A DNA stretch of 64,000 nt from Robiginitalea aurantiaca (lineage in GTDB: Bacteria > Bacteroidota > Bacteroidia > Flavobacteriales > Flavobacteriaceae). The translations under genes and the position numbers were made by a program. Positions 18,692 to 62,865 of the stretch are shown here, in pieces (within the stretch, counting starts at the first letter, position 1; each line of letters starts with the position of its first letter). The notes under the pieces were generated by a model, which did no database searches, had not been told where the DNA came from, and saw only the letters and a program-made list of their open reading frames with translations. The stretch covers positions 434,001-498,000 of the forward strand of contig NZ_JAUDUY010000001.1 of NCBI RefSeq assembly GCF_030380815.1, written 5' to 3'.

Positions 18692-18775
18692 GCCTCGGTG
18701 GCGGAATTGGTAGACGCGCTGGATTCAAAATCCAGTGATAGCAATATCGTGTGGGTTCGATTCCCACCCGAGGTA
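18692..18775 (+). tRNA. tRNA-Leu(CAA)
   Basis: The 84-base gene folds as a class II tRNA. The acceptor arm GCCTCGG pairs with CCGAGGT. The D region is GGCGGAATTGGTAGACGCG, the anticodon stem-loop is CTGGATTCAAAATCCAG with anticodon CAA, a variable arm follows, and the T arm contains GGTTCGATTCC. The discriminator is A and CCA is not encoded. Its 3' end is the integration site of the island and stays intact after insertion. Confidence 0.95.
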
Positions 18776-18776
18776 C
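18761..18776 (+). repeat. attL core (tRNA 3' end)
   Basis: TTCCCACCCGAGGTAC, the end of the T arm, the acceptor strand and one flanking base of tRNA-Leu. The same 16 bases recur at 58916-58931. Confidence 0.9.
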
Positions 18777-27376: not shown

Positions 27377-27381
27377 TATTT

Positions 27382-29492: not shown

Positions 29493-29573
29493 GAATTTTA
29501 TGCAATGTTGATTTACTCCTAAAATCTACATAATTAATCTTGTATGTTGATTGGATTTACTAATATTTACACT

Positions 29574-31301: not shown

Positions 31302-31482
31302 GATAGAGCAGGCCAATTTTTATTCACGACAATATATTAAGAGTTAAAAAATAATATGACTTCAGTAGATTTTTTTGTCATTATTTTACTAACATATAAC
31401 TCATCATGAATTTGTAATTCAGAATTAAAATTTTTAATTAATTCCTATATTAAATGACTTATAATAAAAATTTTAAATCATA

Positions 31483-41501: not shown

Positions 41502-44500
41502 ATGAAAATTCGAGAAAATCAAATTTTATACTCTCCTTCAGATCTTGCAAATCATATTAGTTGTAGGCATTTAACCGAGCTTAATAAAAAAGAAGTCAGA
41601 GGTGATATAGATCCGCCTGAGATTTATAATAACCCAAGCTTGACCCGGCTTATTGACAGAGGTATAGCCTTTGAACAAGAATATCTTAACCAACTCAAAT
41701 CACAAGGCCTTAGTGTTATGGAAATTGAGTACGGAGAAATCGATGCTGAGAAGAAAACAATGGACGCCATTGCTAATGGTTATGATATAATTTATCAGGC
41801 TCGATTGAAATCCAAGAAATGGTCAGGTTGGGCAGATTTCTTAATAAAGGTAGAAAAGCCGAGTGATCTAGGGGATTGGTCTTATCAAGTTTGGGATACT
41901 AAACTAGCAACAAATACCAGAGCTAGCACAATTCTTCAGGTAGGTCTTTATACGCAACGGTTGTCAGAGATTCAGGGAATTGATCCGGAATTTATGGGAG
42001 TCATAAAACCCAATGGGGAAGAAATCTTTCGTTATCATGATTTTGCAGCATATATAAGGCTTGTTCAGCAAAGTTTGGAAGGTTCATTGCTGGTCGATTC
42101 TGAGACATATCCCGATCCGGTATCTCATTGCGAAATATGCAAATGGTGGAAGAAATGTAATGCTCAGCGCCGGAACGATGATCATTTAACATTTGTAGCA
42201 GGCATGGGGAAACCCCAAATGGTAGAGTTAGGTAAAAACAATCTAAATACTTTAGCCAAATTAGCTTCAATGCCAAATCCTCTGCCGATTAGCCCTGAAA
42301 ATGGTAGTCTGGCTACATTTAATAAACTTCGTAACCAGGCAAAAATTCAATATGAAAGTCGTGAAAAAGGGTTTAAACCTTTACATGATTTTCTGCCAAT
42401 TGAAGAGGGAAGGGGGTTTTACAATCTTCCTGAACCTAATGAACATGATGTTTATTTGGATTTAGAAGGTGCGCGTATGGTGGAGCCAAACGGATTGGAA
42501 TATTTAATTGGTTATATATACGAAGGAGATTACACCTCCCTTTGGGCAACAAATGAAGAGCAGGAACTTGCCAATTTTGAGAAGTTTATTGATTGGATAC
42601 ATGAGTTAAAAGGAAGTCATCCTAAGATGCATATATACCACTATGCACCTTACGAACCCAGCGCATTTAAGCGCATCATGGGTAAATATGCTTCACGAGA
42701 AAACGAGGTAGATGAGTTACTCAGGTCCAAGTCATTTGTTGATTTGTATAGAATTCTACGTCAATCCCTTATTGCAAGTGTGGAACGTTATTCTTTGAAA
42801 GATCTGGAGAAGTTTTTTGGGTATGAGCGTAAAATGGATCTAAGGAAAGTATCAATTCCCAAAACAAGCTTTGAATATTTATTAGAAATAAAACGAGAAG
42901 GAGAAGCATCGGAATTTGATTTGTGGATAATAGAGCAGTACAACAAAGATGATTGCCATGCTCTAATTGAATTACAAAAGTGGTTGGAGAGCTTAAGAAA
43001 TGAACTAATTGAACAAGGGCTAGAAATTACCCGGCCTGAGCTCGCAGAAGGAATTGCTAGTGACAAAATCACCGAACACCAGGAACGGATTGAGCCCCTT
43101 TTCATTAACCTAATGCAAAACATGCCAATTTCTGAACAGGATCGATCTGCGGTTGAGCAAGGAAGATATATCCTAGCGCATTTTTTAGATTGGTATAGAC
43201 GGGAGGAAAAAGCATTATGGTGGGAATATTTTCGACTTATTGAGCTCGATCCAGAGGAACTGCTGGATGAAAGAAAGGCAATAAGCTTTCTGAGTTATTC
43301 GGGGAAGAGTTATCAGGAGAAACGTAGCCGGGTTGATGTATACACTTTCCCTCCGCAAGAAGTTGACATAAAGGAGGAAGCCATTAAAAATACAGATGGT
43401 GAAAGCGTAGGAACCATACACTCCGTGGATAAGGATAATGGAATATTGGAAATAAAGAAGGGTCCAAAATTTCAGCAGCTGGATCATCCTTCTGGTTTAA
43501 TTCAATTACAAAGGATAAATCCCACAGAGAAAGAGGAAAGTATTATTCGCTTAGCTCAATGGGTCGCGGAGAATTCTATTGATTCCAAGGATCATCAATA
43601 TTTATTGGGGCGTAATTTACTTCTAAGAAATGCTCCCCATATTCATGTTCAAGAATCAAATCAAAATAACATTGACTTCGCCATAGAAATAATCAAAGGC
43701 CTAAATGGGGATTATCTTGCCATTCAAGGGCCGCCTGGTTCGGGGAAAAGCTATACGGGAAGTCATTTGATCCTGGAGTTAGTAAAAAAAGGGAAGAAAA
43801 TAGGTGTAACCGCAATGAGCCACAAGGTAATAACCAATCTTGTGGCTAAGACAAATGAACTGGCAATATCAGAGGATATTCAATTGAATATTATTCAAAA
43901 GGGAGGGTCAGACGATACGGTACCTTGGGCAGTGTCCGATAACAATAATGATATTTCGGAAAATTTAAATGATTATCAGATCATTGCCGGCACTAGCTTT
44001 ATGTGGGCTCGTGAAGAGTTCTATGAAAGTGTTGATTATATGGTTGTTGATGAGGCAGGGCAGTTAGCTTTAATCGATACAATTGCTTTATCGCAATGTG
44101 CTTCTAATATGATTCTTTTAGGAGACCCTAATCAGTTGCAGCAACCTCAACAAGGAGTTCATCCAGCAGGTACTCAAGTAAGCGCCTTGGAGCATATTCT
44201 CGATGGAAATCAAACTATCCAAATGGATCAAGGAATATTTTTAGAAACCACCTGGCGGATGCACCCGGCAATAAATGATATCGTTTCTGAGCTCTTTTAT
44301 CAAAACCGCTTAATTACTGAACCTCATTTAGGAGAACAAAGCTTATCAGGTAATCTAAAATATAAGGTTGGATTGAGTCTTTTGGAGGTAGATCACGAAG
44401 GAAACTCATCCTCATCTTCTGAAGAGGTAAGGCTTATCACAGAATTAGTAAATCAATTGTGTAGCGGATCCATAGGTTATGTTTCTGTAGAGGAAAATGA

Positions 44501-44849
44501 AAAAACAATTTCCAAAGAAGACCTGAAGATTATCAGTCCATACAATGCTCAAGTAAATCTTCTAAAAAAAGAGATTCCTAATGTCGAAATTGGAACGGTG
44601 GATAAATTTCAAGGGCAAGAAGCTCCTATAGTAATTTATTCAGTTGCAAGTTCAAGCCCATTAGAGGCTCCTCGAGGCATGGAATTTCTATATAGCCCAA
44701 ATCGTTTAAATGTTGCGATTTCCCGCGCCAAAGTACTTTTCATAATGGTAGCTAGCCCTAAAATATTTGAAGCTGATTGTAAGAGTCCAAGAGAAATGAA
44801 GTTGGCAAATGCCTATTGCAGATTTCGGGAGATGGCACATATTCTATAG
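41502..44849 (+). CDS. TM0106-type RecB-like nuclease fused to SF1 DNA helicase
   Basis: The 1115-residue product begins with the TM0106-family start LYSPSDLANHISCRHLTELN and a RecB-like nuclease domain ending in a Cys cluster (CEICKWWKKC). An RNase-H-like region follows (DVYLDLEGARMVEPNGLEYL; KDDCHALIELQKW). The C-terminal third is a Dna2/Upf1-type SF1 helicase: Walker A GPPGSGKS at 743-750, Walker B YMVVDEAGQLAL, ILLGDPNQLQQPQ, IGTVDKFQGQEAPIVI and NRLNVAISRAKVL. This makes a multi-activity DNA-processing protein. It is convergent with the Cas4-like gene. Confidence 0.9.
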   Translation: MKIRENQILYSPSDLANHISCRHLTELNKKEVRGDIDPPEIYNNPSLTRLIDRGIAFEQEYLNQLKSQGLSVMEIEYGEIDAEKKTMDAIANGYDIIYQARLKSKKWSGWADFLIKVEKPSDLGDWSYQVWDTKLATNTRASTILQVGLYTQRLSEIQGIDPEFMGVIKPNGEEIFRYHDFAAYIRLVQQSLEGSLLVDSETYPDPVSHCEICKWWKKCNAQRRNDDHLTFVAGMGKPQMVELGKNNLNTLAKLASMPNPLPISPENGSLATFNKLRNQAKIQYESREKGFKPLHDFLPIEEGRGFYNLPEPNEHDVYLDLEGARMVEPNGLEYLIGYIYEGDYTSLWATNEEQELANFEKFIDWIHELKGSHPKMHIYHYAPYEPSAFKRIMGKYASRENEVDELLRSKSFVDLYRILRQSLIASVERYSLKDLEKFFGYERKMDLRKVSIPKTSFEYLLEIKREGEASEFDLWIIEQYNKDDCHALIELQKWLESLRNELIEQGLEITRPELAEGIASDKITEHQERIEPLFINLMQNMPISEQDRSAVEQGRYILAHFLDWYRREEKALWWEYFRLIELDPEELLDERKAISFLSYSGKSYQEKRSRVDVYTFPPQEVDIKEEAIKNTDGESVGTIHSVDKDNGILEIKKGPKFQQLDHPSGLIQLQRINPTEKEESIIRLAQWVAENSIDSKDHQYLLGRNLLLRNAPHIHVQESNQNNIDFAIEIIKGLNGDYLAIQGPPGSGKSYTGSHLILELVKKGKKIGVTAMSHKVITNLVAKTNELAISEDIQLNIIQKGGSDDTVPWAVSDNNNDISENLNDYQIIAGTSFMWAREEFYESVDYMVVDEAGQLALIDTIALSQCASNMILLGDPNQLQQPQQGVHPAGTQVSALEHILDGNQTIQMDQGIFLETTWRMHPAINDIVSELFYQNRLITEPHLGEQSLSGNLKYKVGLSLLEVDHEGNSSSSSEEVRLITELVNQLCSGSIGYVSVEENEKTISKEDLKIISPYNAQVNLLKKEIPNVEIGTVDKFQGQEAPIVIYSVASSSPLEAPRGMEFLYSPNRLNVAISRAKVLFIMVASPKIFEADCKSPREMKLANAYCRFREMAHIL

Positions 44850-44867
44850 AGATAGAATAAATGATTT

Positions 44868-45617
44868 TTATATGAGGGTATCCAGTTTCCGCTGATATTC
44901 ACAATATGCACATTCTTCTGTATACCCTGGAATTTTATCTTGGTTCAACGTGTCATAAATATTACTCAGGGCATCCTGTAACCAGGAATCATCCCCAACA
45001 TAGGGAATCAGGGAGACTTGAAATTCCATGCATTCATCAAAGGCAGATTTATCCCTTATCCCATTACAATAAACAAAATAGCTAGTATTTGAAACCTCAA
45101 ATCCATTTTGGCGGAGCAAAAATTGATAAATTTCAATTTGCCTTTTGTAGCTGAACTGCCAATCCGCATCAAGCGTGATCTCAGCACTTTTACTAGTTGC
45201 CTTGTATTCTACTACAATTAATTCACCCGTCTTGGTATCCTGCCAAATATCATCCACGGCTCCGTGCAAGTGAAAGTTATGATTCATATCAATATAACTA
45301 ACACCTTTAAAGTTCTCACGCCAGTCATCTAATTTTTCGTGCTGAAAAGGAACTGCGTTCAGGCCAAGCCGAATCATATAAGGATGAGGTTCTTGTATAG
45401 CCCTATAGCGATCAAATTCGTTTTTCAGCAAATTGTCCACTGCTGAATTTATGGTGAAAGGTGGCCCTGAAGGTTGCCCAATCTTCAAACGCCGATCCAG
45501 ATAGAAACATCTTGGACACTTTATAAAATTCTCAATCTTAGATCTACTAATTTTATAGGGTCTTTCGTTTCCAATGATATATTTTCCTTGGTAAGGTTTC
45601 AAACTCATATCAGTCAA
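44868..45617 (-). CDS. Cas4-like PD-(D/E)xK nuclease with Fe-S cysteines
   Basis: The 249-residue product has CPRC at 34-37 after an ISRSKIENFIK helix, the nuclease core HGAVDDIWQDTKTGELIVVE followed by YKATSK (Asp...Glu-x-Lys), and a C-terminal Cys pair CAYC at 236-239. This is the Cas4/AddB-type arrangement in which cysteines from both ends hold a 4Fe-4S cluster. There is no CRISPR locus here. It is last in the NADAR operon and overlaps the preceding gene by 8 bases. Confidence 0.85.
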   Translation of the reverse strand: MTDMSLKPYQGKYIIGNERPYKISRSKIENFIKCPRCFYLDRRLKIGQPSGPPFTINSAVDNLLKNEFDRYRAIQEPHPYMIRLGLNAVPFQHEKLDDWRENFKGVSYIDMNHNFHLHGAVDDIWQDTKTGELIVVEYKATSKSAEITLDADWQFSYKRQIEIYQFLLRQNGFEVSNTSYFVYCNGIRDKSAFDECMEFQVSLIPYVGDDSWLQDALSNIYDTLNQDKIPGYTEECAYCEYQRKLDTLI

Positions 45618-46398
45618 ATTTGATGTTTACAAATCTTGGCCAACTTTCGGGGGTTCCAGATCTGAAAAAGTTAAATAAATTACGTTCTAATGTGGATATA
45701 TCTATACCTAATTCATCTGCTGCCAGCTTCATATTTGTCCAATAATGCCTTAAATCTTTGAACCTGTTGGTAGTAAGTGGAACTAGTTTTCGATCCTTTT
45801 TATTTATTGAGAATCTACCCATCACATTTAAGGCCATTATATTGTCATAGATGGGCAGAACCATGTGAGAGCCTCCATAATACTGCCATAGGTTCACATG
45901 TTTTGTGGCGAATGAAATATTAAATTGATCCGTGGCTGAAATGAGCGTTTCAAGACTGTTCATAATACAATCCAATGTTTCCTCTGGATCATTTTCTTCA
46001 GAATCAATGATGATGGAACGTATAAAGTCCCTGTATGCATCCACATTTAAAATTGTGTTTTGAAAGTAAAACTGTCGGGCACTTTTTCCACCCCACAGCT
46101 GAATCAAATGAAAGATTTTTTCCAACTGATCATCTGTCAATGATTCAACATCATTGTTTTGTATTTCTTCTTGAATCAACCGGATTACCTCATTCGGCCC
46201 AAACTGATAACCAACATTTTGTCTTACTTCATCAATGAGAATGGCATAACCATTTGCTTCCATATTAGTCGCCATAGCCTGAACAGAACCATCGCCTCCA
46301 ACAATCAAGGGCAATTCAGTATCCCAATTCAAATCAGGTATTGCAAATTCACCTCTTTTAAGAGAGGAAATCATAGGGTCATTTAATGTATATATCAT
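45610..46398 (-). CDS. Possible OGG-fold (HhH DNA glycosylase-like) protein
   Basis: The 262-residue product contains IQLWGGKSARQFYFQN, SFATKHVNLWQYYGGSHMVL followed by PIYDNIMALN, and LRHYWTNMKLAADELGIDIS. This order (WGG, a Ser-Phe-Ala-Thr-Lys helix, a Pro-x-Tyr-Asp strand turn, then a helix) recalls the 8-oxoguanine-glycosylase-fold proteins found in bacterial islands, where the Lys and Asp are active-site positions. The match is from memory. It overlaps the Cas4-like gene and follows the NADAR gene. Confidence 0.55.
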   Translation of the reverse strand: MIYTLNDPMISSLKRGEFAIPDLNWDTELPLIVGGDGSVQAMATNMEANGYAILIDEVRQNVGYQFGPNEVIRLIQEEIQNNDVESLTDDQLEKIFHLIQLWGGKSARQFYFQNTILNVDAYRDFIRSIIIDSEENDPEETLDCIMNSLETLISATDQFNISFATKHVNLWQYYGGSHMVLPIYDNIMALNVMGRFSINKKDRKLVPLTTNRFKDLRHYWTNMKLAADELGIDISTLERNLFNFFRSGTPESWPRFVNIKFD

Positions 46399-46426
46399 GT
46401 TTTCTTTTTTTATTATTGAACCGGTT

Positions 46427-47023
46427 TTACTCTCTACGCAGCCCTCTAAAACAATCTACCTCTTCAATAGGTTGCCCCAGCAATTTAAAATTTGATATTT
46501 CAAGGGGAGGCACCCTGAGCAATTTTGAAGATCCCTGGTTTTGGAAATAATAAGCTCTTAATCTTATTAGTAATTTACCTAGTACATTATCTCCCACAAC
46601 CAGATTTTCATTCTCCTTAGATCTCACGGTACCCCAAAATCGATCCTTGTGACTAACCTCCACAATAGGCTTGCTTCCCGACCTTCTTAAAAGGGCCCCC
46701 ATTGCAACGGGATGGTGGGCCATCTTAACCCGTAAACACCACCACATGATATCTTCTTTGACTTCTTCAAAATCATTACGGGTATGGGTGTTCCGATACT
46801 TTTTAGATTTCATCTTTGCCGTCATAGGACTCGGATGGCCCATGATCTCTCTCTGAATCTCCGGATAATCTGGGAAGCGGCAGGCTTGATACAAGGCCTC
46901 CGAGGTGTGAAACAGGTGCCCATTGACATTCATAGGGAAGATCTTTCCCTTCATATTGGACAATCCTCCATACTCTGTGTCTGTTTTTTGAAACCAGACT
47001 ACTTCATTTAAATTATACTCCAT
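46427..47023 (-). CDS. NADAR (YbiA-like) domain protein
   Basis: The 198-residue product (from the Met at 47023; the frame allows a start at 47044) has the NADAR pattern: WFQKTDTEYGGLSNM, HTSEALYQACRFPDY, SPMTAKMKSKKYRNTHTRND and DRFWGTVRSKENENLVVGDN. NADAR enzymes hydrolyse N-glycosidic bonds; YbiA acts on riboflavin intermediates and others remove ADP-ribose from guanine in DarT-NADAR systems. No DarT-like toxin is seen here. It starts 4 bases after the stop of the preceding gene. Confidence 0.88.
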   Translation of the reverse strand: MEYNLNEVVWFQKTDTEYGGLSNMKGKIFPMNVNGHLFHTSEALYQACRFPDYPEIQREIMGHPSPMTAKMKSKKYRNTHTRNDFEEVKEDIMWWCLRVKMAHHPVAMGALLRRSGSKPIVEVSHKDRFWGTVRSKENENLVVGDNVLGKLLIRLRAYYFQNQGSSKLLRVPPLEISNFKLLGQPIEEVDCFRGLRRE

Positions 47024-47027
47024 ACAA

Positions 47028-47714
47028 TTACCAATAATCTTCATCCTTTAATTCTTCTTTAAACTTCTTATAATCAAATATCCAGGAAGCATCCTCTTTA
47101 TAATAACGAGTTTCCTCCAGAATATTTTGAATGAGCATCTTCAAACTACTGGCTATAACTACCGCCATCCAGGATTGACTTTTCTGAATTCTCAGGAGAT
47201 GTATGGCACCCACTACCGTTTCTTCATACCCATTCGGAAGAATATCATACTCTTTATACTGATCCCAATCTTCTGTGGATTCCACATATTCCAAAAACTT
47301 ATCATATCCAACAGTACCTTCTACCACACTTCTATTTAAATCAAATTCCCTTCGAATAAAATTGGCCACACACAAATCCCAAAAAATACTTCGCATAGCA
47401 ATACCTCCTAAAACACCTAAGCACAATTCTTTATACCCATGAATCAACGTTCTCACCTTCTTCTCCCAATATGGAATATCCATATTAAATATCTCCTCAA
47501 CTGCTCCCCCATCAACCATAAAAATCCCGGTAGAACGAAGAATCAAATAATCACTATATTTTTTTCCTTCTTTTAATACACCATCGATATAATTAGACTT
47601 CAAATACCTATCAAACAAATTCCCATTCTCATCAATCCCCCTCATCTTCTTAATCACCAATTCATGAATAGAATCTTGATACTCATACTTATTAAACTCT
47701 AAACTATTTCTCAT
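47028..47714 (-). CDS. Unknown protein of the NADAR operon
   Basis: I place the start at the ATG at 47714 (228 residues, MRNSLEFNKYEYQDSIHELV). A longer start at 47759 would lie inside a promoter module shared with two neighbouring genes. The product is mostly helical with VVGAIHLLRIQKSQSWMAVV and a C-terminal FKEELKDEDYW. No family recognised. Tight linkage suggests a partner or target of the NADAR enzyme. Confidence 0.65.
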   Translation of the reverse strand: MRNSLEFNKYEYQDSIHELVIKKMRGIDENGNLFDRYLKSNYIDGVLKEGKKYSDYLILRSTGIFMVDGGAVEEIFNMDIPYWEKKVRTLIHGYKELCLGVLGGIAMRSIFWDLCVANFIRREFDLNRSVVEGTVGYDKFLEYVESTEDWDQYKEYDILPNGYEETVVGAIHLLRIQKSQSWMAVVIASSLKMLIQNILEETRYYKEDASWIFDYKKFKEELKDEDYW

Positions 47715-47734
47715 ATAAGTGGATTTTAGTCTTG

Positions 47735-47763
47735 CAAACCTACGGGCGAGGTTAGACATTAAA
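47735..47763 (-). promoter_or_regulatory. Promoter/operator copy 3 (NADAR operon, internal)
   Basis: On the minus strand: TTTA at the -33 position, a 17-base spacer containing GTCTAAC, then TAGGTTTG (TAnnTTTG) at 47735-47742. It lies 20 bases before the ATG at 47714. It matches 22 of 27 bases with copy 2 from the -7 region into the spacer. Confidence 0.65.
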
Positions 47764-47827
47764 TGTCCACCTGAAATTCGATTTCAGAGAAAGGCTATTC
47801 TAAAGTTTAAGAGTAAGGGCTTAGTGG

Positions 47828-48334
47828 TTAATGCAGGCCTTCAATAAAAGGATAGTTGATCTGCAGAAAGGGATTTTGGGCGATTGTAACACCTTCAGCT
47901 TCTGTTAAGATCTTCCCTGTCAGGGGAATCCCATTGCTGTAATTTACCACACCATACGCGTTTTCTGAAAGTTCCATAATGGTCCCTTTTGGGATCGATA
48001 TAGGCGTATGGGGATGGTTTTCTGTATCGACGTCTTTGATGATCCTGAACCGTTCCGGGAAATCCTGGTAGATGGTTATTTGGTAACCATCAATTTCAAT
48101 CCAGAGTTGAAAGTGTACCCGTAGGAGGTATACTATTTGCTCAAAGTCTGTACTTTCTACTTCAAAACGGAGTGATTCATTATTGGGAGATAGCGTAGAA
48201 AAGTACTTATCATATAAATCATTGATGCGGGCATCAGAGATGGAAAAGGGGTTTTTTCGTTTTCGAGTGAAGCCCTTTCTCAGATCTTTAGGCTTAGAGA
48301 TTTCAGTAAGAAAAAAGGTGAATGGGAATTGCAT
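47828..48334 (-). CDS. Unknown protein of the WYL-controlled operon
   Basis: The 168-residue product is unrecognised. It is beta-rich in the second half (FRIIKDVDTENHPHTPISIP; NGIPLTGKILTEAEGVTIAQ). A TACATTTG box (TAnnTTTG) ends 2 bases before the ATG, so it may have its own near-leaderless start. Confidence 0.5.
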   Translation of the reverse strand: MQFPFTFFLTEISKPKDLRKGFTRKRKNPFSISDARINDLYDKYFSTLSPNNESLRFEVESTDFEQIVYLLRVHFQLWIEIDGYQITIYQDFPERFRIIKDVDTENHPHTPISIPKGTIMELSENAYGVVNYSNGIPLTGKILTEAEGVTIAQNPFLQINYPFIEGLH

Positions 48335-48381
48335 TACAAATGTATTTGGATGGTACAGGAAAGCCTACTGTTTTGGTTGTT

Positions 48382-48921
48382 CTACACATTCCAATTAAGT
48401 AAGTCAAGAGGCAATCTGTTAGAAATTTCGTTCCAATCGAAATCATTTATGAGGCTTTTCTGTCTCCACTTATATAAATCTGATAGACCGCTGTAACTGG
48501 ACGCTAATGCAAGTTTCAACAACAATTTAGATGTTGCTTCTTCAGGTAGCCCCTGAAATAAATGATCCATAATATCTTGAGGGAGGTTTATGTTGTTCCC
48601 TCCAACCAGATAATGTAAATGGTTCTCTGCCTGTGCTGCTTCATTTCTATTGTCAAAAACAATTATATATCTACTAAAAGGTCCACCACCGTAAAGATGA
48701 TAAAGCCTAACAAGCATTGATTTAAAATTATGTAGCGTGGTATTATTCGAGTTATCAAAAATTATTCTTGCTCTGTTTCGCTTTCCAAGTCCTAAAACGA
48801 TCGGAGTATCATCCAACACAAGAATGTATACCATGTAATTGTTTTCAGGAATTTCATCCAAACTATTGGGTGAGATAATTTGTCCGGGATAAAAATTTTC
48901 TAAGGTTTGTTCTAATGGCAT
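48382..48921 (-). CDS. Possible GIY-YIG-fold protein
   Basis: The 179-residue product has NYMVYILVLDDTPIVLGLGK followed by RNRARIIFD, then YIIVFDNRNEAAQAENHLHY. A tyrosine strand, a VLGxGKxxRAR loop with Arg, and a helix with Glu in AENHLH are what a divergent GIY-YIG nuclease would show. The canonical GIY and YIG triplets are not exact, so this is a tentative fold call. The C-terminal third is helical. Confidence 0.45.
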   Translation of the reverse strand: MPLEQTLENFYPGQIISPNSLDEIPENNYMVYILVLDDTPIVLGLGKRNRARIIFDNSNNTTLHNFKSMLVRLYHLYGGGPFSRYIIVFDNRNEAAQAENHLHYLVGGNNINLPQDIMDHLFQGLPEEATSKLLLKLALASSYSGLSDLYKWRQKSLINDFDWNEISNRLPLDLLNWNV

Positions 48922-48982
48922 CGTATTTAGTCTTTAATTACTTTGTCAAGTTTCTTATTAAACGTTGAGGGATTAAATAACA

Positions 48983-49507
48983 TTAAATCACCCATTCCAC
49001 ATTTTCATTGCTGAAATGTTCATGTAATGCTTCATCTTCAAATACCATCAGAAATCTCCATTCATGAAAGATATTCTTAGCCCATTCAAAAACAATAAAC
49101 CCTCCTTTAAGAATCAATTCATTTTTATTCAAGAGTAGATTTCGAGTATTCATAGAATAGATATCATTACCAGATTGCACAACTAACTCTTCTCCATCAA
49201 ACGGGCCGTTGATGTAATATGAAATACCATCTTGCACCGGAAAATTGGGATAGAAAAAATCGAATGAAACAACTAAGCCTTTCTGGGTATTTTTCAGTTT
49301 TATAGTCACTTCATACCGCTGCTTAGTAAAGACTTGGTACTGAATATATTCTTCTCCATAATCCTCATCAACGAATACTCCTTGTGGGAGGTCTACAACT
49401 TTATCTAAAGGTCCCTCCGTTGTAGATTTATATTCCAGAAACATTTTCCCAGTGATTTCCATACACTCTTTTTTATAGATAGTGGTTTTCAATAAATCCC
49501 TTGACAA
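48983..49507 (-). CDS. Unknown beta-rich protein
   Basis: The frame gives 174 residues, or 159 from the Met at 49462 (MEITGKMFLEYKSTTEGPLD). It is strand-rich with RYEVTIKLKNTQKGLVVSFD and a C-terminal FEWAKNIFHEWRFLMVFEDE. No family recognised. Its start overlaps the end of the small membrane-protein gene by 35 bases. Confidence 0.5.
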   Translation of the reverse strand: MSRDLLKTTIYKKECMEITGKMFLEYKSTTEGPLDKVVDLPQGVFVDEDYGEEYIQYQVFTKQRYEVTIKLKNTQKGLVVSFDFFYPNFPVQDGISYYINGPFDGEELVVQSGNDIYSMNTRNLLLNKNELILKGGFIVFEWAKNIFHEWRFLMVFEDEALHEHFSNENVEWVI

Positions 49508-49667
49508 AAGTCACCACGAGAATGGGCCAGAGTACAACTGTGGTAATTTTTGTGGTGAGACACCACTCAGCCTCTTCTACCTCTAAAATATCATCTAACC
49601 GAAATATTACTTTCAGCCATAACATTCCAAGACTTATATAAAGAACAATCCCAAGCATAATTTCCAT
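49473..49667 (-). CDS. Small membrane protein
   Basis: From the ATG at 49667 the product has 64 residues with two hydrophobic segments (MLGIVLYISLGMLWLKVIF and TTVVLWPILVVTFVKGFI) around a short acidic loop. A TTG at 49694 would lengthen it by nine residues. It could anchor or regulate the neighbouring proteins at the membrane, or act as a small effector; neither is shown. Confidence 0.45.
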   Translation of the reverse strand: MEIMLGIVLYISLGMLWLKVIFRLDDILEVEEAEWCLTTKITTVVLWPILVVTFVKGFIENHYL

Positions 49668-49738
49668 AATAACCTGTTTTAAATTTTGTTCCAATCATAT
49701 GATAAGGCAGTACATAAGCGCATAATCATAGTTTGATA

Positions 49739-50194
49739 TCATTCATTTATTAAGTATTCGATCACAGCCTCCCATCCGGAGTACTTATCACTCCCGAAAT
49801 GAATCCACTCACCCGTAAACTCTTGAGCCCCGTTAAATCTTCGATCATCAATTAGATAATCTCCAATGAGCAACTGTTTATGATGGGATAGAATCAAACG
49901 TTTTCGAATCTTTTTGGTTTCAAAATGCTTGTCTATCCATAATCTCTTGTGCATCCATGCCTCTGGGTTGTCCCAGGGGGCGGTAGAAAGAAAATACACA
50001 TCAAAGTGATCCGTATCTAATAATGTATTCACAGCTTCAATAGCCCCATCAATGGGAGGAAGATTTTCATAGAGCCCCGGAAGCCTATCAGGCCTTCCTA
50101 TAAATGGGGTCTGTCCTGATAGTGGGTGACTCTCCTTACCTTTTTCAAAATCAGCAATAACTCCATCCAAATCGATGTAAATAATTTTAGCCAT
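49739..50194 (-). CDS. HAD-type 5'(3')-deoxyribonucleotidase-like protein
   Basis: From the ATG at 50194 the product has 151 residues. It starts MAKIIYIDLDGVIADFEKGK, which holds the HAD nucleophile Asp-x-Asp, then YENLPPIDGAIEAVNTLL, DVYFLSTAPW (Ser/Thr motif), and KRLILSHHKQLLIGDYLIDD with the late Lys and Asp. This is the NT5C-type nucleotidase pattern, dephosphorylating (deoxy)nucleoside monophosphates. An in-frame TTG at 50218 falls within the -7 promoter element and is rejected. A degenerate paralogue lies immediately upstream. Confidence 0.85.
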   Translation of the reverse strand: MAKIIYIDLDGVIADFEKGKESHPLSGQTPFIGRPDRLPGLYENLPPIDGAIEAVNTLLDTDHFDVYFLSTAPWDNPEAWMHKRLWIDKHFETKKIRKRLILSHHKQLLIGDYLIDDRRFNGAQEFTGEWIHFGSDKYSGWEAVIEYLINE

Positions 50195-50215
50195 ATTATT
50201 CGTTTTTGTGCGTTG

Positions 50216-50244
50216 CAAACATAATCGCCAGGTTAGACAACAAG
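50216..50244 (-). promoter_or_regulatory. Promoter/operator copy 2 (before HAD nucleotidase)
   Basis: On the minus strand: CTTG, 17-base spacer with GTCTAAC, then TATGTTTG (TAnnTTTG) at 50216-50223, 21 bases before the ATG at 50194. The upstream edge also forms a perfect inverted repeat TTAGACA-N5-TGTCTAA (50233-50251), a plausible operator. Confidence 0.7.
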
Positions 50245-50265
50245 TGTCTAATAAAATGAAATTTC

Positions 50266-50724
50266 TTAAACTTGATCTTTGATTAAATGTAGCAACACCT
50301 CATCCCATGTAGGAAATTTGGAATCCACTCCGATTGCAATCCACTGTCCCATAAATTTAATGGATCCATTCATCCAGCTATCATCGATCAGGTAATCGCC
50401 AATAAGCAATTGCTTTTCGTGACAAAGGATCAACCTTTTTTCAATATCCTGTTTATCGAACAACCTTTCTGCCCAAAATTTTCGATCGCCCCAGGCAACA
50501 TCATCTGGCCAGTATGGCGTCGAAATAAAATACACATCAAACTGAGGTATCTTTAGTAAGGAGTGGACCGCCTCCAGTCCTCCACTGACAGGTGGTACTA
50601 TATCATATACACTTATATCGTTTTTGGTAGGTTGCATTTGCAGACACTCACAAACCTGTAACATCAATTTATGCTCTATCTCAGCAATAATTCTATCAAT
50701 GCTTACATAAACAATCTTCTTCAT
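50266..50724 (-). CDS. Degenerate HAD nucleotidase paralogue
   Basis: The 152-residue product aligns along its length with the HAD protein downstream (VYFISTPYW, then KRLILCHEKQLLIGDYLIDD) but starts MKKIVYVSIDRIIAEIE where the paralogue has IDLDGVIADFE. The nucleophile Asp is Ser, the Gly is Arg and a later Asp is Glu. Phosphatase activity is therefore unlikely. It may be a regulatory or sensor subunit, possibly in a heterodimer. It is the first gene of the operon, divergent from the WYL regulator. Confidence 0.8.
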   Translation of the reverse strand: MKKIVYVSIDRIIAEIEHKLMLQVCECLQMQPTKNDISVYDIVPPVSGGLEAVHSLLKIPQFDVYFISTPYWPDDVAWGDRKFWAERLFDKQDIEKRLILCHEKQLLIGDYLIDDSWMNGSIKFMGQWIAIGVDSKFPTWDEVLLHLIKDQV

Positions 50725-50749
50725 GGTTTTTCGTTGTAGAATACAGGTA

Positions 50750-50778
50750 CAAATCTAGACTGCACCTTGGACAACAAA
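50750..50778 (-). promoter_or_regulatory. Promoter/operator copy 1 (head of NADAR operon)
   Basis: On the minus strand: TTTG, 17-base spacer starting TTGTCCAAGG, then TAGATTTG (TAnnTTTG) at 50750-50757, 25 bases before the ATG at 50724. It lies in the 71-base region shared with the WYL regulator gene. Confidence 0.7.
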
Positions 50779-50795
50779 ACGACTAACTCCTTTTT

Positions 50796-51758
50796 ATGAG
50801 AAACCCGAATGTTGAGCTTCTTTTATTCCTGAAAAATCGCCTGGCCTTAAAAGCGCACACAAAGCAGGAACTTGTAGAGCTCTGGCAGGACCGTAATGAT
50901 TCTGGAATAGATGAAAAAACAGTTGACAGGAATGTGGAATTCATGGAAAGGCTAGGTTATGAAGTCATGCGTGGTTTTGACAATAGAAAGCGCATCTATC
51001 GAATCATAGATGATTATGAAAATGAGATCCTGGAAAAAATAGAGAATCACCTTCGGATCTCGGAAACGCCAGAATTAGCCAATTCTGAAATTGTGGCTAG
51101 TGCCCCTGTCCAAAGAGGAATTCAATGGGTTCCATTACTTCTCGAGAGTATTAATAATTGCAGAACAATTGAGTTCGAGCATCATCCCTATACATCTGAT
51201 CCATCAAAAAAGGAAGTCTGTCCAGTTATACTAAAGGAATATCAGGGAAAATGGCACCTGCACGGTTATGACATCCATCGAAAAAAATACAGAACCTATG
51301 GTATAGATCGTATTAGAGATCTTAAGCAACTTGATAAATATGACTGGAATTTGCTTCCCGATTTAGAAAAGGAAATTTCATTTTTTAAAAGTCGCCTTGG
51401 GGCAGCTATGCCATTGCCCGGATATTTTAAGAAAGGAGACATACAACCAGAAATTATCCAACTCAGGGTTTCAGATTTCTATCTTAATTATCTCAAGTCA
51501 AAACCCATGCATTCCTCTCAGGAAATTATAGAGGACGATGTAATCCATCTGAAGAAACTGGATACTAAAGAAGCAATGGGCTTTACTTTAGTAAAATACT
51601 ATTTGGTGCCAAATTATGATCTGGTAAAGTTCATAATGTCACAACTCGGAGATGTAACTATTGAGAACCCTGGAAAATTAAAGAAATACGTCAATGATAA
51701 ATTCCATAATCTGATTACACACATATCTGGCAAGCATACATATACTAAAATGGATTAA
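50796..51758 (+). CDS. WYL-domain transcriptional regulator
   Basis: The 320-residue product has an N-terminal winged HTH (about 1-75, with KQELVELWQDRNDSGIDEKT and VDRNVEFMERLGYEV) and a WYL domain (about 115-200) with RTIEFEHHPYT and KWHLHGYDIHRKKYRTYGID. WYL regulators bind nucleic-acid ligands and commonly repress defence operons until infection. It is divergent from the ten-gene operon, and three similar promoter modules lie there, so it is the likely controller. Confidence 0.88.
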   Translation: MRNPNVELLLFLKNRLALKAHTKQELVELWQDRNDSGIDEKTVDRNVEFMERLGYEVMRGFDNRKRIYRIIDDYENEILEKIENHLRISETPELANSEIVASAPVQRGIQWVPLLLESINNCRTIEFEHHPYTSDPSKKEVCPVILKEYQGKWHLHGYDIHRKKYRTYGIDRIRDLKQLDKYDWNLLPDLEKEISFFKSRLGAAMPLPGYFKKGDIQPEIIQLRVSDFYLNYLKSKPMHSSQEIIEDDVIHLKKLDTKEAMGFTLVKYYLVPNYDLVKFIMSQLGDVTIENPGKLKKYVNDKFHNLITHISGKHTYTKMD

Positions 51759-51773
51759 GGTAAAATCGAGATT

Positions 51774-52478
51774 ATGAATAATATCGCAAGACTAACCAAA
51801 CAAGGAATCTTAAATCAGCCTGTTCCCATTGCTGAATTGTTAGATGGCTCTCTATACTATCCAGCTTCGGCTTTTGATGGAGGTGTTGTCAAACATTTTT
51901 CAAAGAAGATAAATAGTTTCATTTATTGTGATTATGCAACTGGTAAGGCGGCCTTATTGGAGGAATTAAATAAGGGTTTCAAAGGATATGAGCTTTTGGC
52001 CAGTCGGGATTTAAGGATGTCTGAGCTCATTCCATCGGGATGGCAAATGGAACTTCCCCCGGGATTTGATATGAGTGATTATTACCGGCATAAATCTGTT
52101 ATCAAAGACCCGTTTGCTCATTGGGCAGTATATGAAAGATTGCCTGAATATGATGAGGACCATGGCGCAAAGCAATTTAGTATAATTTATATTGGTGGAG
52201 AGGGGGTGGCTACATCTCAGGCACTATATTGGACAAACAACAAACACCCTAAAGCCCTGGCTATCATTCAACCCGGGACAGGATTTGGGTTCAACTGGAC
52301 TGACTTTAGGGAAGGAGACGGACCATTGGCCTGGGTTGTACTTCAAAATAAATCTGGCATTCCGGAATTCATTGTCTCCGACTATTTTGAGCCTGGTTGG
52401 GAGGAATATGCTTATATGCTTAAATATGATTCCAGACGTGATGTGGCAATCTATGAGAGAAAAAAATTGGATAATTAG
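51774..52478 (+). CDS. Hypothetical protein after the WYL regulator
   Basis: The 234-residue product is unrecognised. It is mixed alpha/beta with many aromatics (IPSGWQMELPPGFDMSDYYR; GTGFGFNWTDFREGDGPLAW). It follows the WYL gene by 15 bases and is probably co-transcribed. A sensor or ligand-handling role with the regulator is possible. Confidence 0.6.
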   Translation: MNNIARLTKQGILNQPVPIAELLDGSLYYPASAFDGGVVKHFSKKINSFIYCDYATGKAALLEELNKGFKGYELLASRDLRMSELIPSGWQMELPPGFDMSDYYRHKSVIKDPFAHWAVYERLPEYDEDHGAKQFSIIYIGGEGVATSQALYWTNNKHPKALAIIQPGTGFGFNWTDFREGDGPLAWVVLQNKSGIPEFIVSDYFEPGWEEYAYMLKYDSRRDVAIYERKKLDN

Positions 52479-52902
52479 TAATACTAATGAAGAATTATGG
52501 CTTCTCTTTTGGGTTACTTTTAATGAAATCAGTAATTATTGCTAATGCTTTTAACCAGGGGTAGGGCCGGTTGCTCTTGAAAAAGATGGTTTTTAGAAAT
52601 TTTTTGATTCTATGAAAAACCAACCTGGAATTATCATAAAGCAATTGAATAACAATAGAAAAACTATGGACGCAGGGCCAGGATTTTCTAATTGAAATCG
52701 TTGAAACATAATCTTTATTATGTCAAATAAAAACATAACTGATTGATAATCAAACTCCTTGGAATTAGCAGTTGTTTGAGATTACACTATTTGTGTTAAA
52801 ATCCGTAATACGCTGCGAATAATGCAACAAGATTTAATGAAATTCGATGGTACAGGCTAATAAATTTACGGGTGCACTCCAGACAATTTGAACAATTTAG
52901 AG
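52479..52902. other. Gene-free stretch
   Basis: These 424 bases lie between two gene ends. I see no frame with good coding character, no tRNA-like fold and no strong terminator. It may be decayed sequence marking the join between cargo and the element core. Confidence 0.4.
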
Positions 52903-53727
52903 TTATGAAGAATGACCAAAAGACTTCTGATCCTCCAATTTATCCACTTCAATATCAATAGCTTCAATTAAGGTCCTAACCTTTTCAATAATCACCAGGT
53001 AGCTTCCGGCTTTTAATTGCCTGAACTCAACTGCATTCTGTAAACCGAGAAGCAACTCTCGATCTCGTCGCATTTCATCCAACTTGACCAATTTTATCTC
53101 ATGTATCATGATACTATCCGGAGGGAAATCCAATTCATTAATAACTGGGGGGGTTATATTAATTGCAGAATCTGAAAGGTCAATATATTGTTGAATAAGC
53201 GGTGTAAGGAACTCAAAACTCCTCGCAGAACTATTATCTCTGCCCATTGCTACTATTTTCCTAAAATCCAATTGGTAAAGATTTGTAATATCGCGCCTTA
53301 ATTTGTCATTGGTCAGTGTTTTTAAACCAACAGAATTTAGGGCTTCAAAACCCGAAACTCCCGGAAAGAATTGATGATCCTTATCGATCTTAGGGTAGAA
53401 CTGTATTCTAGTTGAACTTATTGGATGTTCAGATTTTCCGCTTTTTAGGTAATCTATAAGATCAATGGTTACCATCATACCAACTAGGTGACTGTTCATC
53501 CCCAACTCCAATTCCTTTAAGGATAATTGTAAATCCTGCCTTATTTCTTTGTAGACTTCAATTTCGTCAATTCTTGATTGTCGAGCTTCATTCCAGTTAT
53601 CCAATTCAATGGCAATCAGAATACCTATGATTACAATGAGAATCTCCACAATGGCATATAAAAGGTATTTGGTGAATCTATTTTCAGTCAAAAGACCTTG
53701 ACGAATTTTATGCATGAAGTGGAACAT
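52903..53727 (-). CDS. DUF6090 family membrane protein (island copy)
   Basis: The 274-residue product has the DUF6090 layout: a short cytoplasmic start KIRQGLLTENRFTKYLLYAI, one membrane helix (VEILIVIIGILIAIEL), the DNWNEARQ junction and a long helical outer domain. The function of the family is not established. Four relatives lie to the right of the island at 61125-64000. Its N terminus is more divergent than theirs, so it is not a recent copy. Confidence 0.85.
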   Translation of the reverse strand: MFHFMHKIRQGLLTENRFTKYLLYAIVEILIVIIGILIAIELDNWNEARQSRIDEIEVYKEIRQDLQLSLKELELGMNSHLVGMMVTIDLIDYLKSGKSEHPISSTRIQFYPKIDKDHQFFPGVSGFEALNSVGLKTLTNDKLRRDITNLYQLDFRKIVAMGRDNSSARSFEFLTPLIQQYIDLSDSAINITPPVINELDFPPDSIMIHEIKLVKLDEMRRDRELLLGLQNAVEFRQLKAGSYLVIIEKVRTLIEAIDIEVDKLEDQKSFGHSS

Positions 53728-57709: not shown

Positions 57710-58756
57710 TTAATTGAGATTTGCAGTAATGCTATCTTTTTGCTTGTCGGTGTAATTCAAATACTTGACTGTTAGGCGAGTATTACTATGGCCTAATGCA
57801 TCTGCCACAGTCTTAAGGTTTGCGCCATTATTAAGCAATCGAATGGCGAAGGTATGCCTCGCACAATAAAAGGTAATGTTTTTATCGATTTCAGCCTTTT
57901 TCATCCAGCTGATGAGGTTTTTTTTGATTGCCGTTTCACTTAAAAACTTACCATTACGTCTTAAATCAAAAACCAGTCCCTGTGATGGTTTTCCAGCCAA
58001 TTCGAGTGCAGAAGGTGACAACTTAATATTTATGGCTTTCTCTGATTTCTCCCTGAATAAGCGGAGCCTTCCATTTTTTATTTTTTCCCAGGAAAGATTT
58101 TTGATTTCAGCATAACCGAGTCCAGTGTAGCATGAGAAAAGAAAAGCCCTTTTTACAATCTCGTTTCCACAAGGCGTATTCTTAAGGGTCTCAATTTCTG
58201 ATTCGGTTAGAATTTCTTTCGTTAAAGTGTCATTACTCTTTTTCTTTTCCCACCGAATATTTCTGAAGATAGAATCATCCAGATAGTGTTCCCGAGAAGC
58301 CCTTCTTAGTATTTTCTTAATCCTATTCCAGTAGTTGTACGGTGTTTCTCCCGACAAACCTGCATCGTGAAGAAGGAAGTGTTTATAGCCTTCCATTTGC
58401 CTTTCTGTTAACCCACTTAGTTTCTGATTGCGGTTTCCAATGAATTCTTTGAATTTATTAATAGTCCCGGCAATTATTCTTTTGTCAGCCTTTTTGTATT
58501 CTTCCAAATATTTGTCCAAGTACTTGTACAAAAAGATCTTCTTTCTGTGTTTGGGCCTAAAATTAGTCCCCTGAGATTCAATTTCCAGTTCCCTTTGTGC
58601 CTTGATGGTTTGGGCTAACCTTCTCTTTTGAATCTTGTCATCATTTTGATCCACTGTGAATAACCATTCATACGAATGCTCTCCATTATTCACTATGTGC
58701 AAAAAATATCTCTTTCTGCCATTGGCAAGCTTTCGCTCCTTCAGATATACGGCCAT
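57710..58756 (-). CDS. int: Tyrosine recombinase (integrase) of the island
   Basis: The 348-residue product has an N-terminal arm-binding domain, a SAM-like core-binding domain (about 90-170) and a C-terminal catalytic domain. Visible catalytic elements are CARHTFAIRLLNNGANLKTV (His and Arg), DALGHSNTRLTVKYLNY (second His and Tyr nucleophile) and a Lys strand. The usual Arg I position reads CYTGLGYAEIKNL, with Gly in place of Arg, as in CTnDOT-type integrases that lack Arg I. It lies 160 bases from attR. Confidence 0.92.
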   Translation of the reverse strand: MAVYLKERKLANGRKRYFLHIVNNGEHSYEWLFTVDQNDDKIQKRRLAQTIKAQRELEIESQGTNFRPKHRKKIFLYKYLDKYLEEYKKADKRIIAGTINKFKEFIGNRNQKLSGLTERQMEGYKHFLLHDAGLSGETPYNYWNRIKKILRRASREHYLDDSIFRNIRWEKKKSNDTLTKEILTESEIETLKNTPCGNEIVKRAFLFSCYTGLGYAEIKNLSWEKIKNGRLRLFREKSEKAINIKLSPSALELAGKPSQGLVFDLRRNGKFLSETAIKKNLISWMKKAEIDKNITFYCARHTFAIRLLNNGANLKTVADALGHSNTRLTVKYLNYTDKQKDSITANLN

Positions 58757-58915: not shown

Positions 58916-58931
58916 TTCCCACCCGAGGTAC
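58916..58931 (+). repeat. attR core
   Basis: TTCCCACCCGAGGTAC, identical to the 3' end of tRNA-Leu at 18761-18776. The bases to the left differ from the tRNA, as expected for the element-derived side. Confidence 0.9.
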
Positions 58932-60801: not shown

Positions 60802-61128
60802 TCATTCTCGAACACCCCGTCTCCAGTCCCAAGGAGGAATAGGCTTACTATCCTGCCAAAGACCAACCTTATTTGCTCTAGCTTCATCTTCCAGAGCTTG
60901 TAATTTCTCATCCTTTGAATACCTTCTGAAATGCCATGCTAATCCAGCCTTTAGAAGCTCTTCGTTAAGGCATTTATCATCATAGTACACCCAACCAATA
61001 GAACGGCCATATCTGTCCTTAGAATCCACTACAACACTTACCTGACGGCTGAATATGGCATCGGATATAAACTTGGTGGCTACGGCTGAGAAAGGCTGTT
61101 TACGCTGAGGACAATCAATGCTGGCTAG
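60802..61128 (-). pseudogene. 5'-truncated staphylococcal-nuclease-like gene
   Basis: The frame reads LASIDCPQRKQPFSAVATKF, then VSVVVDSKDRYGRSIGWVYY, LNEELLKAGLAWHFRRYSKD and NKVGLWQDSKPIPPWDWRR. These are the second part of a thermonuclease (SNase) domain, with the Asp-Arg-Tyr-Gly-Arg and Gly-Leu-Ala-Trp motifs. The signal peptide and first strands are missing, and no start codon precedes the conserved part. The break lies at the stop codon of the DUF6090 gene at 61125, so a rearrangement joined the two. Confidence 0.75.
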
Positions 61129-61838
61129 TTGATCGTCCCTAATTCTCTATCTATCTCTTCAATGATATTCGCAATATATCTGGAATCATCGTTAACATTG
61201 CGGTTGTAGTGTACATTCCTCTCTAGCCAATGTCTTAATTCATTTAATGTTGATGGCTGCTTAAAGAATAGAATTCTATTCATAGAATCTAAGGCCCGTG
61301 ACTTTACCATGTTATAGCGGAATTGATCATTGAACATATCCAATCGATCTCCATGTGATATTAGAGCTACATACAGTCGGTCATAGATTATCTGTATCCC
61401 CTTTAACAATTCATTGTTTCGAATGATGTTTGAATTACCGTTGTTAATGATTGATTGGTAGGTACCATTTTGTGGAAAAAAAGTATTCCTGGGCCGAATA
61501 CAGCGACTATAAAACAAAGAATCCATATAGTGTAAGTCTAGATCTTCTAATTGAGTCACAGAATCGAATCGACCAATAGTCCGCAGTAAGTCGAGATGTG
61601 ACTCATTTACCCTGCCCTGAATTTGTTCAATATCATTTGAAAGGTCATCTCTTAGTCCGATTAAAAGGTTGCTTTCAAGTTCACGATCTTTTCTAAGTTC
61701 ATTCCACCTGTCGACCTGCAACGCAATCAAAATTCCAATCACCACCAGCAAGATCTCCCCAACCGCATACAGCAGGTATTTGCTGAACTTATTGTCAGTG
61801 AGAAGTCGTTGTCGTATTTGGCGGAAGAAGCGGAGCAT
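61125..61838 (-). CDS. DUF6090 family membrane protein, copy 1
   Basis: The 237-residue product starts MLRFFRQIRQRLLTDNKFSK, has one membrane helix (YLLYAVGEILLVVIGILIAL), QVDRWNE, and a long helical outer domain. It is one of four tandem relatives. It follows the next upstream copy by 21 bases, and its stop abuts a truncated nuclease gene. The family's function is unknown. Confidence 0.85.
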   Translation of the reverse strand: MLRFFRQIRQRLLTDNKFSKYLLYAVGEILLVVIGILIALQVDRWNELRKDRELESNLLIGLRDDLSNDIEQIQGRVNESHLDLLRTIGRFDSVTQLEDLDLHYMDSLFYSRCIRPRNTFFPQNGTYQSIINNGNSNIIRNNELLKGIQIIYDRLYVALISHGDRLDMFNDQFRYNMVKSRALDSMNRILFFKQPSTLNELRHWLERNVHYNRNVNDDSRYIANIIEEIDRELGTIN

Positions 61839-61859
61839 AGGTTGGTTAGTTGTTCAATG

Positions 61860-62864
61860 TTACTCATCCACTTTCTGCAAATCAAAACTATTGAACATTA
61901 AGAAGTGTTTATTACCATCTTTTATTATACTACCATAGAGAAGATCGTCACTCAATATTTTGTAGGGGGGTAGCCAAAAGACTTCGTGTCTGCCAGAGTT
62001 AATATTATCCTTATAATAAAGTCGTTTATCATCATCAAAAAAAGATATAATGGTTTCAGGCTCCCCAACTACCTTCCAGTCACCAATTAGAATTTTTGAA
62101 ACTTCTTGGTTGAACACAAAGCTATCGTCGTAGCCTGAATTATCGAGTGCTTTAGCTATATTTTTGAAGCACTCTATCGCTTTTTGCCTATATCGGATAG
62201 TCCAATTTAACTGATTATATATTGCGATATCCCGATAATCCATAACTTCATTTTTGTACCTAAAATCATTGAGCATAAATTCAATGCGACTTTTTTGGCT
62301 ATCTGGACTATTACTGGAATGCCAAGCATAATATTGACTTCTTATACGGGTGGTCTCCGCTAATAAGTCCTGTAATACTTGGTTCTGATCTTCGACGATC
62401 CTATAATACCTATTATACAATTCACTTAGTTCCCCTAGTAAATCCTTATAACTGTCAGGAACAATATCTAAATTCTGGTTCAATACAAGATAAGTATCCT
62501 TTCTTGGAGTGAAGCTTGTGAGAGTTCTAGAAGCATTGTATAAATGAGGGATTTTATTTGCCTCATAATCATCCATTGTTAATTGATTAGTTAGCACTAA
62601 AAAAATAGTAGAATCCCTTAAGGCATAATATTTCATCAGGTCAGTACTACTATTGATGTCTAAGATTAGCTCGTCCATGATGTCTGATAGAATAGTCGTG
62701 ATTTTTTCATCATTTTTTCTTTCTTCATTCCAATTATCCACCTGCAAAGCAATCAAAATCCCAATTACCACCAACAGGATCTCCCCAATGGCATAGAGCA
62801 GGTACTTACTGAACTTGTTATCAGTAATTAGTCTTTGGCGTATTTGGCGGAAGAAGCGGATCAT
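61860..62864 (-). CDS. DUF6090 family membrane protein, copy 2 with extra C-terminal domain
   Basis: The 334-residue product has the same N terminus (MIRFFRQIRQRLITDNKFSK) and helical region, but carries about 90 further residues. These include SKILIGDWKVVGEPETIISF, a strand-rich segment like a small lipocalin-type or DUF domain that is absent from the other copies. The gap to the upstream copy is 1 base, so they are co-transcribed. Confidence 0.85.
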   Translation of the reverse strand: MIRFFRQIRQRLITDNKFSKYLLYAIGEILLVVIGILIALQVDNWNEERKNDEKITTILSDIMDELILDINSSTDLMKYYALRDSTIFLVLTNQLTMDDYEANKIPHLYNASRTLTSFTPRKDTYLVLNQNLDIVPDSYKDLLGELSELYNRYYRIVEDQNQVLQDLLAETTRIRSQYYAWHSSNSPDSQKSRIEFMLNDFRYKNEVMDYRDIAIYNQLNWTIRYRQKAIECFKNIAKALDNSGYDDSFVFNQEVSKILIGDWKVVGEPETIISFFDDDKRLYYKDNINSGRHEVFWLPPYKILSDDLLYGSIIKDGNKHFLMFNSFDLQKVDE

Positions 62865-62865
62865 G

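Follow-up and report, generated by a model that had tools for sequence, protein, structure and literature searches.

A WYL-linked gene cassette in a tRNA-Leu island of Robiginitalea aurantiaca carries a DS-32-like NADAR protein with a changed partner

Do the ten genes that face a WYL regulator in Robiginitalea aurantiaca make up one defence system? We addressed this question in a window of 64,000 nucleotides (the whole stretch of DNA analysed: assembly GCF_030380815.1, contig NZ_JAUDUY010000001.1, positions 434,001 to 498,000; source genome of 3.46 Mb in 52 contigs), where a sequence-only reading had proposed that a cassette with a NADAR protein, an OGG-like protein and a Cas4-like nuclease was a single undescribed system. 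The locus is real and is cargo of a defence island, and it is more specific than that reading had it, since one of its parts belongs beside an already named pair, DS-32. With our confidence evenly divided, we take the cassette to be WYL-controlled defence cargo in which a partner-swapped, DS-32-like NADAR unit is joined by a glycosylase-nuclease pair, independent of it or cooperating with it, and which does not amount to a single established system.

The cassette comprises ten open reading frames (ORFs) on the minus strand (44868 to 50724), with spacings of -35 to +68 base pairs (bp) between consecutive frames. They diverge from a plus-strand WYL gene (50796 to 51758), which is followed by one more gene (51774 to 52478), so that the divergent arrangement first described is borne out. 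Four identities are firm: the NADAR protein, a PD-(D/E)XK nuclease, an NT5C-type HAD phosphatase and the WYL regulator. The NADAR protein (46427 to 47044, minus strand), recognised as such from the start, passed the gathering score of PF08719 by a wide interval (80.4 bits versus 35.1), and it falls in the DS-32 (DS32_2) group, with a match that stays below the DS32_2 cut-off and spans the whole model. Plasmids yielded 28 records with NADAR relatives, and in each of the best three, which we examined (50, 45 and 40 percent identity), the NADAR gene lay 3' of a phosphoribosyltransferase-like gene passing the DS32_1 (NF053875) cut-off; in the one plasmid locus run against Pfam, this upstream partner was PRTase-CE. 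Relatives were also found in 14 of 395 genomes of the phylum, its own included, and 11 of the 13 others were examined, the two weakest being left out. The resulting comparison set held 14 loci (L026 to L039), one of which (L039) had no NADAR ORF by BLAST, while the other 13 held 14 such ORFs. A PRTase-CE-like gene lay directly upstream of 8 of these 14 ORFs (L026 to L033; gaps of -49 to +16 bp, counted from first start codons), three of the partners being called by the NF053875 cut-off and five by BLAST similarity to those three. The same eight loci are the highest-scoring, and thus the closest, among the relatives examined; the examined set stops short of plasmid matches 4 to 9, which include scores at the level of L033 or higher than that of L034. 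The remaining six ORFs (two in L034, and one each in L035, L036, L037, where it is a 109-residue fragment, and L038) had no such gene directly upstream. The window NADAR paired with that of L026 (support, 0.922), inside the PRTase-CE-bearing loci.

The usual partner is missing from the window: a profile of the eight partners found nothing in any of its six frames, and a search of the same genome for PRTase-CE (PF24390) gave only a noise-level match (E = 0.07) on another contig. Its place is taken by a 243-residue protein (47028 to 47759, minus strand), to which family and homology searches assigned no family. This ORF had been called earlier as a 228-residue protein; the frame stands, and the length from the first start codon is 243 residues. 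The possibility that it is a decayed PRTase-CE was rejected, as it scored no better against the eight-partner profile than unrelated window proteins did. The grouping of the NADAR, taken together with the absence of PRTase-CE and the presence of the 243-residue protein in its position, identifies the window NADAR, as judged from sequence, as DS-32-like with its partner exchanged, and not as DS-32. In the sequence-only reading, a close match to a named system had been set as a test; one part of the set, the NADAR, belongs beside a named pair. The NCBIfam DS32 models presumably derive from the DefensePredictor paper, where DS numbers run to 41 or beyond, proteins with a NADAR domain are mentioned, and the abbreviation PRTase is expanded in a figure legend on validated systems (PMC13092281). 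The string DS-32 was not found in its main text, and literature searches combining NADAR with OGG, WYL, DNA glycosylase, nuclease or PRTase returned no title on the window's gene set among the papers listed. In two of the comparison loci (L031 and L032), what comes after the DS-32-like pairs is a DUF262-like gene and an OLD-nuclease/UvrD-like pair (names given by eye), likely a defence setting.

Together, the 243-residue protein and the NADAR would be a relative of the DS-32 pair in which one partner has been swapped. The most likely role of the former is to make, or to recognise, an adduct of a nucleobase or nucleotide; the NADAR, as the antitoxin-like or trimming half, would take the ribosyl group off that adduct. 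NADARs are reported to free guanosine of ADP-ribose, in DNA as in RNA, and to be the antitoxins of DarT1 and YarT (PMC11833690, PMC11125620). A plain toxin-antitoxin pair, in which the 243-residue toxin would modify guanine-containing nucleic acid or nucleotides, the NADAR would reverse the modification and the other genes would be independent cargo, agrees with this antitoxin role and with the adjacent, overlapping positions of the two genes. We nevertheless consider it unlikely, given that the 243-residue protein has no ADP-ribosyltransferase match and that its gene comes first, whereas YarT is described as downstream of YbiA (PMC11125620). In Pfam searches none of the ten cassette proteins matched an ADP-ribosyltransferase family (five of them were rechecked at E values up to 10), although a very divergent one could escape such searches; this agrees with the initial remark that no DarT partner was visible. 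The window thus resembles the DarT1-NADAR and YarT-YbiA pairs in having a NADAR-family protein beside one of unassigned family, and it differs from them in having no detected ADP-ribosyltransferase. No relative of the 243-residue protein was found in 299 genomes of the family and 147 of the phylum (its own included), in plasmids, in phages or in viral contigs.

Downstream of the NADAR gene lies that of a 262-residue OGG-like protein (45610 to 46398, minus strand). It matched no curated model, including PF21790 at E values up to 10 and, in family searches, the uracil-DNA-glycosylase superfamily; a PF21790 search of its own genome gave one weak match, on another contig. We built a profile from three PF21790 members (found in 1 of 148 genomes, and in 3 of 217 counting that one), and the 262-residue protein ranked first among the 13 window proteins given to it (9.0 bits; E = 7 × 10−4 in the set; next protein, 2.8), ranked first among six-frame window stretches of at least 120 residues (8.6; next, 2.7) and beat all 1,000 shuffles of itself (best, 5.8). 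Its W, G, S, T, K and D residues are in register with the members; K166 and D185 stand 19 residues apart, against 18, 19 and 18 in the three members, and the catalytic pair of human OGG1 is given as K249 and D268 (PMC13160076). Profile comparison by hhalign gave a probability of 5 percent (E = 0.0078 for one comparison), while six other window proteins reached at most 0.6 percent. A pairwise alignment to one OGG member was tried and set aside: it ran off register, its score of 50 was reached by 9 of 1,000 shuffles, and the WYL protein scored 54. These results lend modest support to an OGG-like fold that keeps the catalytic pair, so that the OGG-like motifs first noted survive as a possible fold at the profile level. 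No relative of the protein was found in 296 genomes of the phylum (its own included), in genome contigs (searched with exact short patterns only), or in plasmids, phages and viral contigs. Two of the three OGG members (L161, 1459 to 2091; L165, 1483 to 2079) lie directly 3' of genes that by eye resemble type I restriction specificity subunits.

The last gene of the cassette encodes the PD-(D/E)XK nuclease (44868 to 45617, minus strand; Pfam, 55 bits; cut-off, 22), which has a CxxC...CxxC arrangement. Genome contigs held at least 527 relatives; we kept the 80 best. The four cysteines and the DD...(D/E)xK site were retained in all 81 aligned nucleases (the window's and the 80 relatives, 6 of the 86 core ORFs having been discarded because their frame was wrong or their match weak), a conservation that is partly selection, since the scans that supplied most relatives required either of two motifs, and the first CxxC is part of one of these. 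The first position of (D/E)xK is E in the window and D in the 80 others. A Cas4-like nuclease with four Fe-S cysteines had been called here; the PD-(D/E)XK assignment and the four cysteines held, and the Cas4 or CRISPR assignment was rejected, because the protein stays below the TIGR00372 cut-off (34.5 versus 65), its family is scattered, and the island has no array: nowhere in it do direct repeats of at least 20 bases lie within 120 bp. Across 88 nuclease loci, the largest cluster of neighbours within 5 kb was an ABC ATPase (8 of 88), so that the scattered outcome envisaged by the sequence-only reading is what we found for this gene. None of the window's other proteins appeared near nuclease relatives by tblastn and profile searches, save weak phmmer matches to WYL (L051 and L073); by eye, WYL-type regulators were seen in L046 and L050. 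The nuclease was also considered as a marker of WYL cassettes with uracil-DNA-glycosylase-like genes (L046 and L047, by eye), an idea abandoned after the larger survey, although the few WYL-type neighbours speak against abandoning it. By its distribution in these sequences, the nuclease is scattered and no marker of this cassette.

Furthermore, among 114 loci, each chosen for its NADAR or nuclease relative, none held two of the nuclease, the NADAR and the OGG-like protein. On this count, and with no recurrent neighbours around the nuclease and the NADAR's usual partner PRTase-CE absent, the proposal that these genes form a single undescribed system is not supported. In a system of that kind, the NADAR would free guanine in phage DNA of a ribosyl or ADP-ribosyl group, the OGG-like protein would excise the base thus exposed, the nuclease would cut the abasic site and the WYL regulator would switch the whole on. 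The overlapping or closely spaced genes behind one promoter consensus agree with it, as do the activity reported for NADARs on guanosine that carries ADP-ribose, in DNA as well as RNA (PMC11833690, PMC11125620), and the trim-then-excise precedent of Brig3-BapA (PMC13160076); set against the 0 of 114 loci, we regard it as quite improbable. We rate as very unlikely a WYL-controlled "trim, excise and cut" defence at guanine in which three enzymes would work on invading DNA: a partner-swapped DS-32-type NADAR to strip a ribosyl-type decoration, an OGG-fold glycosylase to remove the base, and a PD-(D/E)XK nuclease with a cysteine cluster to destroy the abasic product. In the reading that we prefer, cargo with a NADAR unit and a glycosylase-nuclease pair, the OGG-like protein would excise modified guanine from DNA, the nuclease would degrade DNA at the lesion so left, and nucleotides would be the substrate of the HAD phosphatase.

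The opposite extreme, in which unrelated single genes were stacked in an island with no shared function, has to be weighed against how the cassette is built. The WYL regulator (50796 to 51758, plus strand) passed PF13280 (42.7 bits; gathering score, 21.8). TTTG-N-TAnnTTTG is the Bacteroidota promoter consensus, and a search for TTTG-N16-22-TAnnTTTG on both strands of 44701 to 52600 gave a single match (0.365 expected from base shuffles), TTTG-N17-TAGATTTG at 50750 to 50778 on the minus strand, reading into the cassette from the gap beside the WYL gene. Its -7 element is overlapped by an imperfect palindrome found by eye, TTGTA-N9-TACAA (50734 to 50752), a candidate operator. No terminator-like site lies within 44868 to 50724 (the wider region has four, versus 5.4 expected), and matches to the E. 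coli-type promoter are near chance (31 versus 26.6 expected; standard deviation, 5.1). Because the promoter in the WYL gap is the only one of its type and the cassette has no internal terminator-like site, the sequence fits one WYL-controlled transcription unit across the ten genes, in which one repressible promoter would drive them all; WYL control, as first suggested, is thus probable. Mere accumulation would account for the scattered nuclease homologues and for the recurrent set not being found, and it sits poorly with ten co-oriented genes at gaps of 68 bp or less, one promoter consensus and no internal terminator-like site; we consider it improbable.

The setting of the cassette is an integrated island. 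A tRNA-Leu gene (18692 to 18776) ends in a 16-bp attachment repeat, TTCCCACCCGAGGTAC (18761 to 18776, plus strand), whose right copy (58916 to 58931, plus strand) lies just past a tyrosine integrase gene (57710 to 58756, minus strand; Phage_integrase, 76.8 bits); about 0.001 exact 16-mers would be expected by chance between the two compared stretches (arithmetic with equal base frequencies). The island so bounded measures 40,171 bp (18761 to 58931). Its G+C content is 0.360 between the copies and 0.487 to the left of the pair, and that of the cassette is 0.373. The repeat pair, the terminal integrase and the G+C content show that the cassette is cargo of this island. The same island groups an EcoRII-type endonuclease, a Vsr nuclease and a DNA methylase (28320 to 31316), and PADLOC models, run on 20 window ORFs, matched all three genes of the candidate system PDC-M33 (A, B and C, in order, 24570 to 28197). 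With such neighbours, the description of the region as a defence locus holds.

Several observations weigh against the reading of the cassette as island-borne defence cargo with a DS-32-like NADAR unit and a glycosylase-nuclease pair. The NADAR reached 213.5 bits against DS32_2 (NF053876), short of the cut-off of 240, and the OGG scores given above (9.0 bits; hhalign, 5 percent) are weak. AlphaFold models from single sequences were unusable for both the 243-residue protein (predicted local distance difference test, pLDDT, 32.7) and the 262-residue protein (pLDDT, 37.0), and the searches found no homologue of either protein. The nuclease family is widespread and scattered, with no recurrent neighbours. 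Moreover, G+C content remains low from the right repeat to the window end (0.381), so that composition marks the left end only, and for the right boundary of the island the repeat and the integrase are the sole markers.

Against known systems, the cassette shows partial likenesses. The likeness to DS-32 lies in a NADAR of the same group, matched over the whole model and encoded by the second gene of a tight pair; the difference is that the window NADAR is under the cut-off and an unrelated 243-residue protein replaces the PRTase-CE partner. Cas4 and related nucleases share the PD-(D/E)XK superfamily and the cysteine pairs, whereas the window nuclease scores below the Cas4 model, belongs to a separate widespread family and sits in an island without a repeat array. 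Base-excision restriction enzymes are reportedly sequence-guided restriction glycosylases that leave an abasic site (PMC10273834); restriction through base excision would be the point in common, and guidance by recognition sequence and methylation is the point of difference. In the Brig3-BapA defence pair, as described, a first enzyme trims a base that carries a decoration, and a glycosylase afterwards removes that base (PMC13160076). Both Brig1 and Brig3 have ADP-ribosyl glycohydrolase genes nearby (PMC11078745, PMC13160076), a role for the one near Brig3 having been discarded by the authors (PMC13160076). The window, too, has a candidate DNA glycosylase beside a possible trimmer of base decorations in a defence island; unlike Brig3-BapA and Brig1, it has an OGG-like protein in place of the uracil-DNA-glycosylase superfamily, a NADAR in place of BapA, and an additional nuclease. 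By analogy, the order 243-residue protein, NADAR, OGG-like protein and nuclease might reflect a Brig3-BapA scheme turned to guanine; equally, it might be that a toxin-antitoxin pair lies next to a glycosylase-nuclease pair.

A natural NADAR of the DS-32 group with another partner would help to separate the role of the NADAR from that of its partner; we found no mechanism for a PRTase-NADAR pair in the main text of the DefensePredictor paper (PMC13092281). Base-excision immunity as reported so far concerns modified 5-hydroxymethylcytosine (Brig1 and Brig3) and modified thymine (Brig2) (PMC13160076), along with the sequence-guided restriction glycosylases (PMC10273834). If the OGG-like protein acts with the NADAR, this immunity would extend to decorated guanine through an unrelated glycosylase fold, and a trim-excise-cut system, if true, would be a guanine counterpart of Brig3-BapA made from unrelated enzymes.

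The other cassette genes, all on the minus strand, begin nearest the WYL gene with two HAD proteins, first labelled a nucleotidase and its degenerate twin, which the family scores uphold. They align to each other over nearly their full length; the NT5C-type phosphatase (49739 to 50218) has an intact DLDG motif and passes its Pfam model (46.5 bits; cut-off, 24.8), and the twin (50266 to 50724) has SIDR in place of DLDG and falls below it (18.8 bits). They are followed by a 73-residue peptide (49473 to 49694, from the ORF list; a putative two-helix membrane peptide in the sequence-only reading), a 174-residue protein (48983 to 49507) of no firm family, with a match only to PDC-M64B (13.5 bits; E = 0.01), a 179-residue protein (48382 to 48921) and a 168-residue protein (47828 to 48334) without family matches. 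The possible GIY-YIG label first given to the 179-residue protein was not confirmed, as family searches gave no GIY-YIG match, and relatives of the 179- and 168-residue proteins, sought in plasmids only, were not found. The 234-residue protein 3' of the WYL gene (51774 to 52478, plus strand) has no family match.

A gene at 41502 to 44849 converges on the cassette with 18 bp between them; it encodes a 1,115-residue protein with RNase H-like and helicase domains and a partial match to Mokosh MkoA. Elsewhere in the island, a 562-residue protein (20064 to 21752) matches PDC-S14 over a short N-terminal stretch and Nhi over a later part. Just outside the island (61125 to 63573), three tandem proteins share by eye a hydrophobic N-terminus, which the start of a protein inside the island (52903 to 53727) also resembles by eye.

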